DNA of 8,445 nt. Origin: a bacterium (GTDB lineage Bacteria > Blakebacterota > Blakebacteria > Blakebacterales > Blakebacteraceae). A program made the position numbers and the translations under genes. The notes under the pieces are model-generated. The model was given only the letters and a program-made list of their open reading frames with translations. It was not told the DNA's origin and ran no database searches. The DNA lies in contig JALGWK010000059.1 in NCBI GenBank assembly GCA_025774205.1, positions 1 to 8,445 of the forward strand, given 5' to 3'. The first letter of the stretch is position 1; every line of letters begins with the position of its first letter. This document shows, in pieces, positions 1-8,339 of the stretch.

Positions 1-85
1 TCGGCGGATGTCGGGAATGTGCATTAGACATAGGAGGTGCCGCCGGCACACCTCACCCACCAGGATGCTCGACAGGGGGACCACC
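1..85 (+). promoter_or_regulatory. Leader upstream of the PurF-like gene, with a short hairpin
   Basis: No complete gene fits here. A perfect 5-bp inverted repeat, GTGCC (37-41) and GGCAC (45-49), has a 3-base loop and could form a small hairpin. It overlaps the end of a Shine-Dalgarno-like AGGAGG at 32-37 that serves no obvious start codon. An open frame from base 1 ends at TAG 25-27 and could be the tail of an upstream gene, but eight codons are too few to tell. I could not pick out a convincing -35/-10 pair. The reading frame of the next gene is open back to base 8, but that extension (Arg/His/Cys-rich) does not look like a PurF N-terminus. Confidence 0.25.
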
Positions 86-1495
86 ATGGGCGGATTCTTC
101 GGAGTCACCGCTGCCGATGACTGCGTGACCGATCTCTTCTTCGGGACCGATTATCACTCCCACCTGGGAACGATGCGCGGAGGACTCGCGACGAAGAATT
201 CAGGCGGAATTGTCCGCTTCATCCACGACATCACCAACACCCCCTTCCGCTCCAAATTCGAGAACGATGTCTCGAAACTGCACGGCAACCGTGGGATCGG
301 CGTGATCAGCGACCACGACGACCAGCCGCTCATCATCCGCTCTCACCTGGGAACGTTCGCGATTGTAACCGTCGGCGTCATCCAGAACATCGAGGAGATC
401 ATCCAGAAGACTTTCTCTGAGCGACGGGCCTTCTTGTCGGAGATGAGCGGTGCGACCACCAGCCCCACCGAGGTGACAGCGATGCTGATCACCCAGGAGG
501 ACTCCTTCACCGCAGGTCTCACGGCGGCCCAGGAGGCGATCGACGGATCGTGTTCCATTCTCCTCCTCACCGACGAGGGTATCTACGCCGCGCGCGACCG
601 GCTGGGACGGACGCCGGTGATCCTGGGGAAGAAGGAAGACGGCACCAGGGCTGTCACGATGGAGACGTGCGCCCTCCCCAATCTGGAATTCACCTGGGAG
701 CGCGACCTCGGTCCGGGTGAGATCGTGCGGATGACCGAGGATGGCGTCGAACAGATGAAGCCGCCGGGCGAAGAGATGAAGATCTGCGCCTTCCTCTGGG
801 TCTACTACGGCTACCCTGCCTCCCACTACGAGGGGATCAATGTCGAACAGGTCCGCTATCGATGTGGCGCGGCCCTCTCCCGACGCGAGGATCCCGACGT
901 GAAGGTCGACATGGTCTGCGGTATTCCAGATTCCGGCACCGGTCACGCGATCGGATACGCCCAGGAATCGGGGATCCCCTACGGACGCCCCTATGTAAAG
1001 TACACGCCGACCTGGCCGCGCAGCTTCATGCCGCAGGATCAGACGATCCGCGACCTGGTGGCAAAGATGAAACTGATCCAGGTCCCCGACCTGATCGATG
1101 GGAAGAGCCTCCTCTTCTGTGAGGATTCGATCGTCCGGGGCACCCAGCTGCAGGACACGGTGCAGCGTCTTTACGAGGGCGGCGCCAAAGAGATCCACAT
1201 GCGCCCGGCCTGTCCGCCGCTGGTGCACGGCTGCCGCTACCTCAACTTCTCCCGCTCGAGATCGGAACTCGACCTGGCAGGACGACGCGCGCTGGCCGAA
1301 CTGGAAGGCACTGCGGAGGAAGTTCCCCCCGCCTACTCAGATCCCGACACCGACGAGTACAAAGCCATGGTCGAGAAGGTGCGTGACCGGCTGAAACTGA
1401 CTACACTCACCTATCAGCGTCTCGATGATCTCATCGAGGCGATCGGCCTGCCGCGGGAGAAGGTCTGCACCTACTGCTGGGACAAGCAGGGGTAG
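86..1495 (+). CDS. PurF-type amidophosphoribosyltransferase homologue with a degenerate glutaminase domain
   Basis: This 469-residue protein has the two-domain layout of PurF, the first committed enzyme of purine synthesis, which makes phosphoribosylamine from PRPP and glutamine. ATG 86 is chosen because AGGGGGA (74-80) lies just upstream and because GGFFG then aligns with the PurF N-terminus. The C-terminal phosphoribosyltransferase domain looks functional: PDSG near residue 282 and a PRPP loop CEDSIVRGT at 345-353. Four cysteines (234, 383, 461, 464, the last pair as CTYC) align with the 4Fe-4S ligands of Bacillus PurF. The N-terminal amidotransferase domain keeps its framework, but Cys1 is Gly2, the RYST arginine is Ser75, the HNGN asparagine is Val96 and the SDTEV aspartate is Pro127. 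Glutamine hydrolysis is therefore unlikely. It may use free ammonia or another amine, or serve another role. I recall similar Cys-less homologues annotated as PurF in other bacteria, but could not check. Membership of the family is firm; purine synthesis as its job is not. Confidence 0.88.
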   Translation: MGGFFGVTAADDCVTDLFFGTDYHSHLGTMRGGLATKNSGGIVRFIHDITNTPFRSKFENDVSKLHGNRGIGVISDHDDQPLIIRSHLGTFAIVTVGVIQNIEEIIQKTFSERRAFLSEMSGATTSPTEVTAMLITQEDSFTAGLTAAQEAIDGSCSILLLTDEGIYAARDRLGRTPVILGKKEDGTRAVTMETCALPNLEFTWERDLGPGEIVRMTEDGVEQMKPPGEEMKICAFLWVYYGYPASHYEGINVEQVRYRCGAALSRREDPDVKVDMVCGIPDSGTGHAIGYAQESGIPYGRPYVKYTPTWPRSFMPQDQTIRDLVAKMKLIQVPDLIDGKSLLFCEDSIVRGTQLQDTVQRLYEGGAKEIHMRPACPPLVHGCRYLNFSRSRSELDLAGRRALAELEGTAEEVPPAYSDPDTDEYKAMVEKVRDRLKLTTLTYQRLDDLIEAIGLPREKVCTYCWDKQG

Positions 1496-1548: not shown

Positions 1549-4500
1549 ATGCAGCGGTCGGTCAACCGAACGGTAATCAGGACCGCGCTCCTCGCGGCTT
1601 TTTCCTTCCTGGCGATTCCGCTCCTGACGATCTCGTCGTGTTCCCACCCTCAGCGCTTCTCCCCGTCAGGAACAGAGCGTGAACCGATTGCTCTCTGGGA
1701 TCTCCAGCCTGCCGCCTACCTGAACGGTTATACCCGATCGCTCCTCGGCGATCCCTTCGTCTACCACTCCCCCCATCCCGATGTGGGCACCTCCCTGCTC
1801 TCCCGCGCGACCGAACACCTCATGGAGATCGCCTGGGAGACCGCCCCCCTGCCCGGGGGCTTCGACTCGCCCTCCGCGATCTTTGTCTGGATGTGCGGGA
1901 TCCAGCGCGGACCGCCGGCGGCTCATGAATTCCACTTGAGTATCGACGGGGAGCGGGCCTTCACCTTCTCAACCATGCATGACGGCGCGCCTGAGGAGTG
2001 GGAGATCTCTGATGGTGAGGGTGCCCGACTCGGTTTCCGGTCGGTCATGACCGATCGTTACGACGATCTCATGGGTTACATGTACCTGGAGATGCCGCGT
2101 CGGCGCCTGGTTCCCGGGGAATCGCTCTCGCTCAGCGTGGTCGGGGAACAGGCCGGCAGCAACGACTGGTACATGACCTTCGAACACCGGGTCGCCCAGC
2201 AGGTCACCCTGATCCCCGAACCGGCCCTCGTGCGTGAAGCGGACGGGATTCATCAACTGATCCGGGTCGATGTCGAACACCTGGGTGAACCGTCGGAGGC
2301 GGTCATACGCGTGGCCGGCCGCGAGATCGGCCGGCTTCCGGTCGCTCTCGGCTACAATTCGCTCAACACCTCCCTCCCCGCCGTCGAGGAACCAGCCGAA
2401 GTGGTTGTCGAGGTCGCGATCGAGGGCTATCCCGTCCGGGAGCGGACCTTCACCCTTGCGCCGGTCGAGCACCGGGAGATGTACCTCCTCCACCACTCCC
2501 ACGTCGACATCGGTTACACCCACGTCCAGGAGGAGGTCATCCGGATCCAGTCGGAGAACCTCAAGCAGGCGATCGAGCTCGGACGGCAAACCCGTGACTA
2601 CCCGGAGGATTCCCGTTTCCGCTGGAACACCGAAGTGGTCTGGGCGGTCGATGAATACCTGCGCCGGGCGGCCTGGTTCGAGCGGGATCAGCTCTACGAG
2701 GCGATCCGGGAGGGATGGATCGGAATCGACGGACTCTACGCCAACGTGCTCACCGGTCTCTGCCGGCCGGAGGAGTTGTTACGGCTCTTCGATGCCGCCC
2801 GCGATCTCTCGGAGGAGACCGGCGTCACCATCGACGCGGCGATGATCATCGACATCCCCGGCTACACCTGGGGCCTGGTGCCGGCCATGGCGCAAAGCGG
2901 GATCCGCTACTTCTCGATCGGTACCAACACCGGCCACCGGATCGGGTCGATCATCCGGGAACTGGGCGACCGTCCCTTCTGGTGGGAGTCCCCCTCCGGC
3001 AATGAACGGGTCCTCTGCTGGGTCGCCGGTCGCGGTTACTCGTGGTTCCACACCGGGCTCGGAGCGACCTCGATCCGCACCCACCTCCAGAGCGGCCCCC
3101 TCCTCTCCTACCTGAGGGACCTCGACGCCTCCGGCTGGCCGTATGAGATGGTCTCCTTCCACTACAACATCGGATCGGACAACGGCCCCCCCGATCCGGG
3201 ACTATCCGATTTCGTAAGGGAGTGGAACGATCGCTACGTCACCCCCCGTCTCATCATCTCGACCACCTCGGAGATGATGGGCGAGTTCGAGCGCCGATAC
3301 GGCGACACCCTGCCCGTCAGGCGGGGTGACCTCACCGGCTACTGGGAGGACGGGGCCGCTTCTTCGGCGCTGGAGACCGCCATGAACCGCGCTTCGGCCG
3401 AGCGGCTGGTGCAGGCCGAGGCCCTCCGGGCGATGCTCAGGGCGCAGGAGACTCCCCGGACAGCCCCCTCCGATGTGGTGGTGACGGGCCTCGGAACTGA
3501 CGCGGAATTCTCCGCAAGTCTGACCGCTTACATCACTGAAGGTTGGCGCAACGTACTTCTCTACTCCGAGCATACCTGGGGTTCATGGGACAGTATCAGC
3601 GACCCGGAGAGTGAGTTCACCCGCCAGCAGTGGGAGTTCAAGCGGGAATATGCTCTTGAAGCTGACGAACGATCACGATCGATACTCGGTCTGTTCCTCG
3701 GCGAGTCCCTGTTGGCGGATATTTCAGGTGACTATCCCTCGGCGGTGACGACGATCGATGTCTTCAACACCTGCTCGTGGGACCGGACCGAGGTGGTCAC
3801 GATCCCGGCGGACGTACCCAGAGCAGGCAACCAGGTCCGGGATTCTTCGGGGAGCGTCCTCCCTTCACAGGTGCTCGCGAACCACGACCTGGTGTTCCTG
3901 GCTCCCTCTGTCCCCGCCTTCGGCGCGAGACGGTTCACCCTCGGACCGGATGACGGGGAGCTGCCCGACCCGCGGCTCCGGGGCGGGGTCGTGGTGGAGG
4001 GGAACACGATGCGCGACAGCCTCCTCACGGTCACCATCGACGGTGAGAGCGGCACGATCTCATCCCTGCGGGCGGCCGGCATCCCGATCGACCTTGTCGA
4101 CACCGCCGACGGGGCCGGCCTGAACGAGTACCTCCATGTGGCTGGCCGCACACCGGACGATCCGGCCAGGTCGGGACCGGTTTCGATCACCGTGGTCGAC
4201 CGGGGTCCGCTGGTGGCATCGATCGAGATCACCTCGGAGGCTCCCGGACTGCGACAGCTCACGCGGAGGATCAGACTGATCGACCGGCACGGCAGGGTCG
4301 ACATCACCGACACCCTTGACAAGGAGCGTGTATACAACCCGGAGGGACTACACCTCAGGTTCCCCTTCAACATCCCCGAACCGGTTATTCGGATCGACGC
4401 CGCCTGGGGGCATTACCGTCCCGGACCCGACCAGATCCCCGGCTCCTGCCGGAACTTCTTCCCGGTCCAGCGCTGGGTCGATGTCTCGAACGATGACTTC

Positions 4501-5040
4501 GGCGTCACCTGGACCAGCCTCGATGCCCCCATGATGGAGATCGGGGAGATCACCACCGACCCGATCGCGACCGGCTGGCTGGAGGATGTGGCTCCCTCGG
4601 CCACCATCCTCTCCTATGTCATGAACAACTATTGGGAGACCAACTTCCGGGCGTACCAGGAAGGTCCGGTCACATTCAGGTACGCCATCCGGCCGCACAC
4701 CGGCTTCGATCCGGGAGCTGCCCTCCGCTTCGGGGTCGAGGCGACCCAGCCACTCCTCGTGGTCCCGGTCGATCCTGGAACACCGGAGGTGGAGCCGCTT
4801 CTGGTGGTCGGTTCAGACCGGGTGGTCGCCTCCTCTTTGAGCGTGGCGCCCGACGGCGAGGGACTCCTGCTCCGTCTGTTCAACACCGGTGACAGCCCGG
4901 AATACGCCTCGCTCGTGTTCACCAGCGATCTGCTGGCAGACGTCTGGCTGAGCGACCTGTCGGGAAGACGGGGGAGAATGCTGACCGAACAGCCCCTGAT
5001 ACCTGCCTTCGGCATCGTGACGCTTTATATATCGTTCTGA
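1549..5040 (+). CDS. Glycoside hydrolase family 38-type (alpha-mannosidase-like) lipoprotein
   Basis: The 1163-residue product starts with a lipoprotein signal: basic residues, a hydrophobic core (about 13-28) and lipobox ISSC with Cys31, so it should be lipid-anchored outside the cytoplasmic membrane. Residues 32 to about 305 form a beta-rich N-terminal region I do not recognise. The GH38 catalytic part begins at 311 with HHSHVDIGYTH, where His318 and Asp320 match the zinc ligands of the family HSHxDxGW motif. Asp435 in IIDIPGYTWGL is the probable nucleophile. FHYNIGSDNG (His538) and EHTWGSW (Glu674-His675) are later conserved-looking blocks; His675 is the best candidate for the last zinc ligand, by inference. 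From about 740 onwards the protein looks like the beta-sandwich C-terminus of GH38 enzymes. Retaining exo-mannosidase chemistry is expected from the family, but this HVDIGYT subgroup is divergent and the sugar is unknown. AAGGAG lies four bases before ATG 1549. It is longer than many GH38 enzymes because of the N-terminal region. Confidence 0.85.
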   Translation: MQRSVNRTVIRTALLAAFSFLAIPLLTISSCSHPQRFSPSGTEREPIALWDLQPAAYLNGYTRSLLGDPFVYHSPHPDVGTSLLSRATEHLMEIAWETAPLPGGFDSPSAIFVWMCGIQRGPPAAHEFHLSIDGERAFTFSTMHDGAPEEWEISDGEGARLGFRSVMTDRYDDLMGYMYLEMPRRRLVPGESLSLSVVGEQAGSNDWYMTFEHRVAQQVTLIPEPALVREADGIHQLIRVDVEHLGEPSEAVIRVAGREIGRLPVALGYNSLNTSLPAVEEPAEVVVEVAIEGYPVRERTFTLAPVEHREMYLLHHSHVDIGYTHVQEEVIRIQSENLKQAIELGRQTRDYPEDSRFRWNTEVVWAVDEYLRRAAWFERDQLYEAIREGWIGIDGLYANVLTGLCRPEELLRLFDAARDLSEETGVTIDAAMIIDIPGYTWGLVPAMAQSGIRYFSIGTNTGHRIGSIIRELGDRPFWWESPSGNERVLCWVAGRGYSWFHTGLGATSIRTHLQSGPLLSYLRDLDASGWPYEMVSFHYNIGSDNGPPDPGLSDFVREWNDRYVTPRLIISTTSEMMGEFERRYGDTLPVRRGDLTGYWEDGAASSALETAMNRASAERLVQAEALRAMLRAQETPRTAPSDVVVTGLGTDAEFSASLTAYITEGWRNVLLYSEHTWGSWDSISDPESEFTRQQWEFKREYALEADERSRSILGLFLGESLLADISGDYPSAVTTIDVFNTCSWDRTEVVTIPADVPRAGNQVRDSSGSVLPSQVLANHDLVFLAPSVPAFGARRFTLGPDDGELPDPRLRGGVVVEGNTMRDSLLTVTIDGESGTISSLRAAGIPIDLVDTADGAGLNEYLHVAGRTPDDPARSGPVSITVVDRGPLVASIEITSEAPGLRQLTRRIRLIDRHGRVDITDTLDKERVYNPEGLHLRFPFNIPEPVIRIDAAWGHYRPGPDQIPGSCRNFFPVQRWVDVSNDDFGVTWTSLDAPMMEIGEITTDPIATGWLEDVAPSATILSYVMNNYWETNFRAYQEGPVTFRYAIRPHTGFDPGAALRFGVEATQPLLVVPVDPGTPEVEPLLVVGSDRVVASSLSVAPDGEGLLLRLFNTGDSPEYASLVFTSDLLADVWLSDLSGRRGRMLTEQPLIPAFGIVTLYISF

Positions 5041-5046
5041 TCTTCG

Positions 5047-5073
5047 GCCTGTTCGCCGGTTACTCCGACAGGC
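5047..5073. terminator. Possible bidirectional hairpin between convergent genes
   Basis: GCCTGT (5047-5052) and ACAGGC (5068-5073) are perfect inverted repeats. Inside them CGG (5057-5059) can pair with CCG (5065-5067) around a TTACT loop. The structure sits at the junction of two convergent genes, where a shared terminator would be useful, and extends into the last codons of the minus-strand gene. There is no T-run on either side, so intrinsic termination is uncertain. Confidence 0.3.
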
Positions 5074-6424
5074 TCCTGGTGTCGCCGCGCGCCACCCTGA
5101 GACAGGGCGGGATCAGGAATATGTTTCCGGCCAGCCGGCCGACCATGAAGGCGATCGCCGCGGCCGTGGCCCCCACCGCCCCGAACACATGGATCGTCAG
5201 CAACAGCACTGCCACGATCCCGCCCATCTCAATGACCGTCGCCCAGCTGATCGGACCGGTCCTGCGGGCGTGCACGAGGAAGCCGCGCTGGAAGGAGAGG
5301 AGTACCGAGAACGCCGGCAGCAGCATCAGGATGCGGGTCGGCGCCAGAGCGAAGTCGGTGAGTTCCGGGCTCAGCCCGGAGATCGTCTCGTACCATACCC
5401 GCGATAGCGGTGTCCAGGCGATGATGGTTAAGACCGCCGTCGCGGCGATCGCGAGCCAGAGGGCGAACCGGCCCAGTTCGGCCAGGTGCTCCCGGTGCCG
5501 GCCGATGAGGACGATCACCACCTCCTGGAAGCTCAGGCCTACGCTCCTGAAAATGAAGGTGAGCGCATTCAGCACCGGCAGCACTGCCAGCGACTCCAAC
5601 GGGTACCGGGCGTGGCCCATGAAGAAGGTCACCACCGGGTGGACCGCCAGGCTGATCACCGAGGTGAGCGCCAGCGGATAATAGAAGTTGGCGATCCCGC
5701 CGTAGCTCAGGATCCACTCGCAATCGCCGGTCCCGTCGTCATTCAGCAGACGGTTGACTGTTCCCCGCACCATCAGCCTGCTGGCGATCGATTCGATGGT
5801 AACCGCGATGGAGAGCGCGGCCGCGCCGATGTGCGATCCCGGCAGGTCAGTAAATGCATGCAGCAGCAGCGCCGACAGCACGATTGATGAGAGCCGGATG
5901 ATGGTGCCGTAGGCGACCCGCCGGGTGAGGTTGTCCCGGATCAGCAGGCCCTGGTAGAAACGCCGGAAACCGATCGCGGCCGGCCACGGGATCATCAGGA
6001 TCAGCGCCCCATGGATCAGGTCGGCGACCTCGTCAGGCAGGTTCATGAAGTCACGCACGATCAGATCGAAGACCGGCCGAAGGAGCACGATCAGCATCGC
6101 CGCTGTCACGATGACGTTCAGCAGGACGGTGAAATTCCTCAGTTTCCGGTAGTTGTGAGCACAATCGACCAGGGCGGTGGAGGCGCTCATCAGCATGATC
6201 ACCGGCGCTTCCACGATGATCGCGAAGGCGAAGGCTACCCCGTAGGCGGCCAGGTTGAACTTCGGATCGGGCATCCGCGCGATGATGGCCGCCAGGAAGG
6301 GGCCCTCCAGGGATATCATCAGCCAGGTGGCGGCCAGTGGCGCCCAGAGGAGCGCGATGCGCCGGGTGCCCAGGCGGTCAGGGGACCTCCCGTCAATCTC
6401 CTGTCGATCTCCGATCAGCCCCAC
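5060..6424 (-). CDS. MATE/MOP-superfamily-like 12-TM membrane transporter (possibly ANKH-like)
   Basis: The 454-residue protein is strongly hydrophobic. About 12 membrane segments can be placed near 24-48, 58-82, 98-117, 135-160, 170-190, 198-215, 243-268, 278-306, 318-338, 360-378, 393-412 and 416-438. The two halves resemble each other: FYQGLLIR...GTIIRL (156-178) aligns without gaps to FQRGFLVH...ATVIEM (378-400), an offset of 222 residues. This fits the two six-helix bundles of MATE/MOP exporters. Blocks such as AAYGVAFAFAIIVEAP (59-74) and WPAAIGFRRFYQG (147-159) remind me of bacterial proteins related to the progressive-ankylosis (ANKH) family, but that is from memory. The substrate is unknown. 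The start is GTG (6424-6422), with AAGGA seven bases upstream on the minus strand; no ATG lies closer than codon 36. It converges on the glycosidase gene with 19 bases between stops. Confidence 0.75.
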   Translation of the reverse strand: MGLIGDRQEIDGRSPDRLGTRRIALLWAPLAATWLMISLEGPFLAAIIARMPDPKFNLAAYGVAFAFAIIVEAPVIMLMSASTALVDCAHNYRKLRNFTVLLNVIVTAAMLIVLLRPVFDLIVRDFMNLPDEVADLIHGALILMIPWPAAIGFRRFYQGLLIRDNLTRRVAYGTIIRLSSIVLSALLLHAFTDLPGSHIGAAALSIAVTIESIASRLMVRGTVNRLLNDDGTGDCEWILSYGGIANFYYPLALTSVISLAVHPVVTFFMGHARYPLESLAVLPVLNALTFIFRSVGLSFQEVVIVLIGRHREHLAELGRFALWLAIAATAVLTIIAWTPLSRVWYETISGLSPELTDFALAPTRILMLLPAFSVLLSFQRGFLVHARRTGPISWATVIEMGGIVAVLLLTIHVFGAVGATAAAIAFMVGRLAGNIFLIPPCLRVARGDTRSLSE

Positions 6425-6573: not shown

Positions 6574-6590
6574 AGGATGGCGGTCATCCT
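6574..6590 (+). repeat. Hairpin in the leader of the activation-domain gene
   Basis: AGGATG (6574-6579) and CATCCT (6585-6590) are perfect inverted repeats around GCGGT. The hairpin ends 15 bases before the AAGGAG ribosome binding site at 6606. It contains the upstream in-frame ATG 6577, a further reason not to use that codon as the start. A role in translation control is only a possibility. Confidence 0.35.
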
Positions 6591-6618
6591 TCAGGGCCTG
6601 TATAGAAGGAGCATGTCT

Positions 6619-7326
6619 GTGTTCATCCATGAATGCGCCACCAGGGGAATCGAACCTGACCGGTCGTCGGTCCTCGGTCTGCTCGGATATCCGGCAGACA
6701 CAGAACCGGCGGACGGGATCTCCGACCTGGTCGACCGGGCCTTCGAGCTCTTCCACCGTACGGCGGCGCCCCGCGGCATATCGACCGTCATATCGGTCGA
6801 TGAGTTCGACACGATCTGGCCCGGAGAGGGGATGAACGATCCCGAGGCCGTCCTCGGTCCGATCTACCCTCTCGCCGACCGGCTCGCTCTCTCCGCCGTT
6901 ACGCTGGGCCAGGAGGTGAGCGACACCATCACCCGACTCTTCGACGAGAACGATTTTGCGTTCGCGACCATCTTCGACGCGGTGGCTTCGGGAGGAGCGG
7001 ACCGGCTGGCTGATGTTATGATGCAGGCTCACCTGGAACGGTTCGATCCGGCCGGTGAGGATCCACCCGGCATAGGGAGTCTGCTTTACAGTCCCGGGTA
7101 CTGCGGCTGGCATGTGAGTGGTCAGCGAGCCCTCTTCCGGCGGCTCCAGCCCGGACAGATCGGGATCGAGCTGCTCGAGAGCTGCCTCATGCGACCGTCG
7201 AAGTCGGTCTCCGGTGTGATCGTGACGGGACCGGTCGAGATACACCGCTTCGTACCCGATTTCGGTTACTGCGCGAACTGTGCGACGAAGAGCTGCCGCG
7301 AGCGGATCGCTTCGCTCGCGGTATGA
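6619..7326 (+). CDS. Stand-alone methionine synthase activation-domain protein (MetH reactivation)
   Basis: The roughly 235-residue protein matches the C-terminal activation domain of cobalamin-dependent methionine synthase. That domain binds S-adenosylmethionine and allows inactive cob(II)alamin to be reduced and remethylated. Key blocks are YSPGYCGWHVSGQ (157-169), equivalent to the PGY SAM-binding loop, and ESCLMRPSKSVSG (187-199). The tail carries CANCATKSC (Cys218, 221, 226), a C-x2-C-x4-C pattern that may bind a metal and is absent from E. coli MetH. The chosen start is GTG 6619, because AAGGAG 6606-6611 is seven bases away; ATG 6613 is one base from it, and ATG 6577 has no ribosome binding site. 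No cobalamin-binding DxHxxG module is present, so the partner must be elsewhere. Thermotoga maritima also has this domain as a separate protein beside a shortened MetH. The next gene encodes the homocysteine domain, supporting a split enzyme. Other corrinoid methyltransferases could also be the client. Confidence 0.82.
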   Translation: MFIHECATRGIEPDRSSVLGLLGYPADTEPADGISDLVDRAFELFHRTAAPRGISTVISVDEFDTIWPGEGMNDPEAVLGPIYPLADRLALSAVTLGQEVSDTITRLFDENDFAFATIFDAVASGGADRLADVMMQAHLERFDPAGEDPPGIGSLLYSPGYCGWHVSGQRALFRRLQPGQIGIELLESCLMRPSKSVSGVIVTGPVEIHRFVPDFGYCANCATKSCRERIASLAV

Positions 7327-7388
7327 GAATGATGACATGAGGTCCATCAGGAGTGGTGGACCGGCACCCGATCCAGGAGCGTGAGCGA

Positions 7389-8339
7389 GTGGACCGATTC
7401 AGGGAGCAGATCGAAGCCGGCAGGATCCTCATCTCTGACGGCGCCCTGGGGACCATGCTGCAGCAGAAGGGCGGCTACGAGACCTGTCCGGAGGAACTCA
7501 ACCTCTCCCGCCCCGACATCCTGGAGGATGTCGCCCGGCTCTATGTCGAGGCGGGTTCCGATATCATACACACCAACACCTTCGGGGCCTCACCGCTCAA
7601 GCTGGCAACAGCGGGCCTCGATGAATATGTGGTCGAGATCAACCGGGCAGCGGTCGAAGCGGTTCGAAGTGCTGCCGGTGAGGATACGCTCGTTTCCGGT
7701 TCGATCGGACCGACCGGCAAACTGCTGGTGATTAACGAGACCACGCCGCAGGATGTTGAAGCCGGCTACACCTATCAGGTCGGTATCCTGGCCGAAGCGG
7801 GCGTCGATCTCCTCTGTGTCGAGACGATGACCGACCTGGTCGAGGCACTGATCGCCGTCAGGGCGGTGCGGACCGCGGCCCCCGACCTGCCCTGCATGGC
7901 CACCATGACATTCGATCCGACGCCGCAGGGATTCCGTACCATCATGGGGGTCGCCATCGAGCAGGCCGTGCCGAGACTGCTCGACGAAGGGGTCGAGGTA
8001 GTGGGATCGAACTGCGGCCACGGGCTCGATACGATGGTCGAGGTCGCCCGGGCTTTCCGGGAGGTCACTGACGCACCCCTCATCATCCAGTCGAACGCCG
8101 GGCTCCCCGAACTCGTGGATGGGGAGGTCGTCTACAACGAGTCACCGGAGATGTTCGCCGAGCGGGTGCCCGATCTGATCGAGGCCGGGGTGCGGGTGCT
8201 GCGGGACAACCCCCGACCACATCCGGGCGATCCGGAACGCGGTCGACCTGCGGGCCTGACTCCCGACCCGGAAGAGGAACGGGTTCCGATCCCTGTCATA
8301 CCAACGATCGGCAGAACCGATCAGGAGACCTGGCGATGA
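7389..8339 (+). CDS. Homocysteine S-methyltransferase domain protein, frameshifted before the zinc motif
   Basis: This is a TIM-barrel homocysteine methyltransferase like the N-terminal module of MetH, which activates homocysteine as a zinc thiolate. Visible family blocks are [10 protein letters not shown] (15-24), NTFGAS (63-68), ETMTD (145-149) and GSNCGHG with the first zinc cysteine, Cys209. Beyond Val268 (codon 8190) the open frame departs from the family and ends in an unrelated Arg/Pro-rich tail (269-316) that overlaps the first bases of fumC. The expected zinc motif and C-terminus lie in the +1 frame (see the next entry). As read, the protein lacks two of its three zinc ligands and should be inactive. 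GTG 7389 is preferred because AGGAG (7375-7379) lies nine bases upstream and the family usually begins just before this point. GTG 7353 and 7356 are possible, but their AGGAG is too close. It follows the activation-domain gene by about 60 bases, in the same direction. Confidence 0.85.
8194..8259 (+). pseudogene. Displaced C-terminus of the homocysteine methyltransferase (+1 frame)
   Basis: Read from 8194, this frame gives [10 protein letters not shown] followed by a short helix-like end and TGA at 8257-8259. This is the canonical GGCCGTTP(E/D)HI zinc-binding end of the family, placing the two missing cysteines at 8197-8202. It is one frame ahead of the upstream gene. The ancestral coding region was therefore probably 7389-8259, leaving a normal 76-base gap to fumC. 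Homologues usually have about four residues between the AGV block and GCC that are absent here, so the break fits an 11-base deletion better than a single-base slip. Confidence 0.8.
8260..8335 (+). promoter_or_regulatory. Probable original spacer before fumC
   Basis: If the methyltransferase once ended at 8259, these 76 bases were non-coding. They hold AGGAG at 8323-8327, eight bases before ATG 8336, a well-placed ribosome binding site for fumC. GGAAC/GTTCC forms a tight dyad around 8276-8287 with too small a loop to be a convincing terminator. Confidence 0.4.

Follow-up and report, generated by a model that had tools for sequence, protein, structure and literature searches.

The PurF-like gene and its surroundings

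The window, that is, the whole stretch of 8,445 nucleotides that was analyzed, carries a gene for a PurF-like protein without the N-terminal cysteine, followed by further open reading frames (Table 1). The PurF-like gene starts with the codons ATG GGC GGA. Its reading frame is open in the 5' direction to base 2, and a mis-called start that hides a catalytic cysteine is unlikely, since the homologues begin with MGG and no CG[IV]FG-like start is present in the upstream residues. The Pfam family GATase_7 matches the N-terminal half of the 469-amino-acid protein. The NCBIfam purF model (TIGR01134, an equivalog) matches only weakly, with 179 bits where the curated cut-off is 350 bits, and the other members of the family, here referred to as variants, score approximately 145 to 200 bits, also below this cut-off.

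Table 1. Features of the window (positions are those of the forward strand)
Feature	Position	Strand	Remarks
Shine-Dalgarno-like AGGGGG	74..79	+	just 5' of the ATG at 86; read from sequence
PurF-like gene without Cys1	86..1495	+	469 aa; putative phosphoribosylamine synthase (PRPP aminotransferase), proposed to depend on ammonia
Ntn domain with class-II glutaminase fold, residues 1-230	86..775	+	GATase_7 match; alignment
Shortened glutamine loop, G72 to P81	299..328	+	alignment column counts
Phosphoribosyltransferase domain, residues 231-469	776..1492	+	structure comparison
Predicted Fe-S ligand codon C234	785..787	+	invariant in the aligned variants and canonical PurFs
PRTase flexible loop, residues 303-331	992..1078	+	R312, R322, and K329 kept (catalytic-type)
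PRPP loop, residues 344-355 (FCEDSIVRGTQL)	1115..1150	+	alignment
Predicted Fe-S ligand codon C383	1232..1234	+	alignment
Predicted Fe-S ligand codons C461 and C464	1466..1477	+	alignment
GH38 alpha-mannosidase-like protein	1549..5040	+	1163 aa; 53 bp 3' of the PurF-like gene
Membrane protein	5060..6424	-	454 aa; weak MatE match, just below the Pfam cut-off
Stand-alone Met_synt_B12 (methionine synthase activation domain) protein	6577..7326	+	directly 5' of the homocysteine methyltransferase gene
Homocysteine S-methyltransferase ORF	7353..8339	+	frame broken near 8200

The nearest solved relatives of the protein are the PurF proteins of plants, B. subtilis, and E. coli. An AlphaFold2 model, built with 50 window and locus sequences, had a mean pLDDT of 89 and a pTM of 0.89. 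Comparison by VIA-align gave Z scores of approximately 41 to Arabidopsis and B. subtilis PurF with 420 to 425 residues aligned, so that both domains are predicted to be folded as in PurF. Canonical PurF structures (1gph and 1ao0 of B. subtilis, 1ecb and 6czf of E. coli, and 6lbp of Arabidopsis) share the two-domain fold over the full length with Z scores of 38 to 41, although the sequence identity amounts to approximately 25 to 27%. Beta-lactam synthetase and carbapenam synthetase were also among the matches of the fold search. These two enzymes are class-II amidotransferase relatives that have lost the catalytic cysteine of the Ntn domain and have a working synthase domain; unlike the variant, they possess an AsnB-type synthase domain with a different chemistry.

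The arrangement with the GH38 neighbor is shared with the sister genome G001 and is absent in G002, the two being the nearest relatives that carry the variant, and the neighbors in the window are therefore uninformative on function. At the other end of the window, the Met_synt_B12 protein and the homocysteine methyltransferase suggest a split MetH system. The frame of the latter is broken before the expected zinc-ligand GGCCGT motif and the sequence continues in the next frame, which corresponds either to a real frameshift or to an assembly error.

Glutaminase and phosphoribosyltransferase sites

When 50 variants were aligned with canonical PurFs, the Cys1 position was found to be occupied by Gly in 49 variants and by Ser in one, and by Cys in all canonical rows that reach this column. 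The window protein has Gly, Ser, Val, and Pro at the positions of Cys1, Arg73, Asn101, and Asp127, respectively, as the earlier note had read from the DNA, and the alignment revealed corresponding changes throughout the 50 variants: Asn101 is replaced by Val or Ile, Asp127 mostly by Pro or Ser and also by Ala, and the Arg of the HRG motif by Leu. The glutamine site of PurF, consisting of the catalytic N-terminal Cys and Arg73, Asn101, and Asp127, is thus missing. In addition, a change was found in the glutamine loop, which in E. coli PurF spans R73 to E84 (PMC7953260). Between the flanking conserved columns, this loop has 7 residues in all of the 49 other variants counted, as compared to 15 to 19 residues in canonical PurF, and it is hence approximately 8 residues shorter, with the position of Arg73 located inside it. 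The loss of the glutaminase therefore exceeds the four named residues, since the loop itself is shortened. The deepest member of the family (L008:1435-2880, minus strand), which is 50% identical and originates from a different lineage, starts with MSGICGVV; its Cys1 position is occupied by Ser, and a Cys is found at position 5.

The claimed retention of the PRPP site and of four cysteines at Fe-S ligand positions was borne out as well. The DSIVRGT segment of the PRPP loop is invariant in the variants, as are R312, R322, and K329 (window numbering) of the flexible loop, so that the PRPP loop and the flexible-loop catalytic residues of PurF are present. Cysteines 234, 383, 461, and 464 are likewise invariant and are putative Fe-S ligands of the B. 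subtilis and plant type. The neighbors of the flexible-loop residues are altered, with YTPTW where canonical PurF has NRYVG, and Q354, located beside the PRPP loop, is uniformly unlike PurF in the variants.

The Ntn domain contains 25 near-invariant family-specific residues, including D22, Y23, S25, R31, R55, K57, S75, and D76, and also a conserved surface-type motif, FRSKF. Several of these residues, namely, D22, Y23, S25, R31, S75, and D76, together with H26 and S86, are invariant polar residues that are located in the segments bearing the catalytic site in PurF, as might be expected if the domain had a rebuilt active site that still hydrolyzed glutamine or another amide by means of residues other than an N-terminal Cys. 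This possibility is considered quite improbable, because Ntn chemistry requires a nucleophile at the mature N terminus, which is Gly here, the glutamine loop is short, and the glutamine-holding Arg73 and Asp127 are gone. Furthermore, no Cys is conserved in the Ntn domain across the whole variant family; Cys13, which was considered as a substitute nucleophile, is replaced by Ala in several of the operon-encoded variants (for example, L156 to L158). Another possibility is that the rebuilt domain is no remnant and forms a new functional site, comprising D22, Y23, S25, H26, R31, the FRxKF motif, S75, and D76, which may capture ammonium itself or a different nitrogen donor in place of glutamine, or may gate the channel with a new ligand. 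This reading is considered unlikely.

Distribution, co-occurrence with canonical PurF, and gene context

In a scan of GTDB-representative contigs, at least 587 stretches were found to encode relatives of the window protein. The 80 relatives listed of these are 57 to 69% identical and belong to many bacterial phyla and to Lokiarchaea; Clostridia and Desulfobacterota are among the bacterial carriers of the family. In nearly all cases, the protein begins with M/V/L-G-G-[hydrophobic]-F. In a maximum-likelihood tree, all 50 sampled variants form one clade with a support of 100/100, located on a long branch to which neither canonical PurF nor another, archaeal group of Cys-poor proteins belongs; the homologues with the GGFFG start and the FFGTDYHSHLGT block, for which the earlier note had proposed this analysis, thus constitute a clade of their own. 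Comparison with the sister genome yielded a dN of 0.054 and a dS of 0.851 for the whole gene (dN/dS of approximately 0.06) and a dN of 0.067 and a dS of 0.942 for the glutaminase domain (approximately 0.07), which indicates strong purifying selection. A pseudogene, recent decay, or chance was rejected on the basis of the dN/dS of approximately 0.06 and of the single clade over many phyla.

A PurF paralogue without Cys1, termed PurF', has been described in crenarchaea, where it is clustered with purine genes and was suggested to act with ammonia (Brown et al. 2011, PMC3261824). It resembles the variant in the missing N-terminal Cys, in its location near purF and purine genes, and in the ammonia-dependent role envisaged, but it occurs beside PurF, whereas the family of the window protein also occurs without it. 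The archaeal proteins L136 to L140, encoded as a second PurF in tandem with purF, presumably represent the published PurF'. They match PurF with up to 373 bits, some possess Cys1 and others have Val, Ser, or Ala in its place, and they form a clade separate from the variant family, each supported with 100/100. A third, very divergent PurF-like group was noticed in archaeal genomes (L145:322-1767, L146:346-1866, and L150:289-1740), with an MAG.. start, approximately 130 to 145 bits to purF, and a branch length of approximately 3.

Whether the genome holds a second purF, as the earlier note had asked, was answered in the affirmative: the C-terminal part of a canonical-type PurF is located at a contig end of the window's genome, which is 86% complete, and both G001 and G002 possess the variant and a full canonical PurF. 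A PurF above the cut-off is also present in 40 of the 50 variant genomes, and several of the other 10 have fragments or a long (approximately 630 amino acids) and lower-scoring PurF type.

Genomes with the variant alone were studied among 146 Clostridia genomes, sampled at the level of the class with a completeness of at least 95%, and the following statistics refer to this class alone. The variant was identified in 41 genomes. No canonical PurF was detected in 12 of them, all being draft genomes, and the other 29 have both proteins. All 12 sole carriers possess purD and all 12 possess purM. Of the 105 Clostridia without the variant, 19 had no match at the first threshold, and one of these, G115, has a canonical PurF and purD; in the remaining 18, without PurF, an intact purD was found in none (17 without a match and one with a C-terminal fragment). 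The other 86 have canonical-type matches, counted without individual scoring against the PurF cut-off. The difference in purD, 12/12 versus 0/18, has a Fisher p value of approximately 1e-8, or 1.5e-7 if the fragment is counted, with species treated as independent. The subsequent pathway steps are thus retained where the variant is the only PurF-like gene, and the pathway has been lost where both proteins are missing. The sole/both label requires at least 8 changes on the variant gene tree, so that the sole-carrier state is unlikely to be the peculiarity of one lineage, with the reservation that this is a gene tree and not a species tree. Genomics lends good support to a replacement of PurF by the variant where purD and purM are kept.

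Links to purine biosynthesis are also apparent from the gene context. The variant was found between purE and purM, the position of purF, in G103, G155, and G132, which are without PurF, and in G093, G096, and G097, which have PurF; in G096 and G097, one further gene separates purE from the variant. The operon has the form purE-X-purM-purN-(IMP cyclohydrolase)-AICAR transformylase-purD-purL, with the pur genes identified by NCBIfam for L156 and by BLAST to those for the other loci. In seven other sole-carrier genomes (L176, L177, L178, and L180 to L183), the operon contains purE-purM without purF, and the variant is encoded elsewhere. It directly follows carB in G210 (L165), and its further neighbors include carB, guaA, purB, purC, and purD. 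In approximately 20 genomes of the Lokiarchaeal type it adjoins canonical purF, in more than one orientation. No neighborhood is conserved across phyla; most copies are single genes, and the purine signal is confined to subsets. As a separate observation, the clostridial pur operons L156, L158, L160, L161, L169, L176, L177, and L180 to L183 have a split purH, namely, a PurO-like IMP cyclohydrolase, recognized by NCBIfam with a weak score, and after it a separately encoded AICAR transformylase.

These data bear on the alternatives. The earlier note had proposed either a phosphoribosyltransferase that uses ammonia or another nucleophile, or a regulatory paralogue, and its interpretation holds in part. 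A regulatory pseudo-enzyme would bind PRPP and/or nucleotides and tune canonical PurF, for example in a mixed tetramer, which is in line with the PurF present in most variant genomes and with the Lokiarchaeal genes that adjoin purF. This is a poor fit, because the variant is the only PurF detected in some genomes, which nevertheless keep purD and purM, and because the phosphoribosyltransferase catalytic residues are retained, and we regard it as highly unlikely. Equally little weight is given to phosphoribosyl transfer to a different amine, with a non-purine metabolite as the product and the pur operon cases as secondary. The altered flexible loop, Q354, and the many copies outside purine operons would agree with it, but the sole-PurF genomes and the purF operon slot call for 5-phosphoribosylamine (PRA), and purD, which needs PRA and is kept in all sole-carrier genomes, disfavors another nucleophile. 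The proposal of a phosphoribosyltransferase that would use ammonia, in contrast, is well supported by the sole-PurF genomes that keep purD and purM and by the purF slot in operons.

The variant might also form PRA as a synthase subunit that receives nitrogen from glutamine via a separate, docking glutaminase. Pairs of a synthase and a glutaminase are common elsewhere, and docking would agree with the Ntn domain being strongly constrained, also in surface-type motifs (for example, FRSKF). However, no additional glutaminase or amidotransferase gene was found to recur beside the variant in pur operons or in other contexts, and this arrangement is deemed improbable.

Proposed function and its implications

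The variant very probably acts in PRA formation. With somewhat less confidence, we consider it likely to be a de novo purine enzyme that generates PRA from PRPP without a glutaminase of its own, most likely with free ammonia, and that serves as an alternative to or a replacement for PurF. The lost glutaminase residues and loop, the conserved phosphoribosyltransferase and Fe-S sites, the purF slot, and the presence as the sole PurF-like gene argue for this reading. According to work cited in PMC3261824, replacement of Cys1 in PurF abolishes the use of glutamine, and the use of ammonia is retained. Free ammonia that reaches the phosphoribosyltransferase site would react with PRPP to form PRA. 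Many anaerobes keep the variant beside glutamine-dependent PurF, probably as an ammonia-type alternative analogous to AsnA beside AsnB, and several lineages may have lost the ordinary PurF and rely on the variant alone. Two enzymes that differ in the nitrogen source for one step are exemplified by AsnA and AsnB and by the ammonia- and glutamine-dependent NAD synthetases; AsnA is unrelated to AsnB, whereas the proposed ammonia-type variant is a PurF relative that keeps its disabled domain. The variant thus falls outside PurF by score, catalytic Cys, and glutamine loop, yet its mode of action is probably that of the PurF synthase half.

We infer that the protein is catalytically active, that ammonia is its donor, and that it acts as an isozyme where PurF is also present, and several observations weigh against the ammonia reading. 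Most carriers also possess canonical PurF, and the variant may have another role there. The constraint on the Ntn domain and its own conserved residues exceed the needs of a purely passive remnant. The flexible loop, which covers the bound PRPP and contributes to the ammonia channel, is rewritten, which could mean an altered substrate. Finally, the genomes in which PurF is missing are drafts, although 12 of them agree in this respect.

In the literature collection that was searched, no paper was found on the bacterial variant family or its use as the sole PurF, and nothing on a Bacteroides or Desulfovibrio paralogue. The Akkermansia PurF described in PMC11804010 has more than 610 residues and is not a member of this family.

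Purine synthesis is commonly regarded as dependent on glutamine in its first committed step. If the proposed function is correct, a large PurF-like clade that is scored weakly by the curated PurF model would consist of PRA synthases of the ammonia type, and entire clostridial lineages would make purines without a detectable glutamine-type PurF. The nitrogen accounting in metabolic models would change, such organisms would no longer be scored as missing purF, and the step would be predicted to be resistant to glutamine analogues such as DON. Should the Ntn domain form a new site, a third mode of nitrogen supply for purine synthesis would exist in many anaerobes and Asgard archaea. The variant also offers a testable sequence-level explanation for the unexplained archaeal PurF' duplications.
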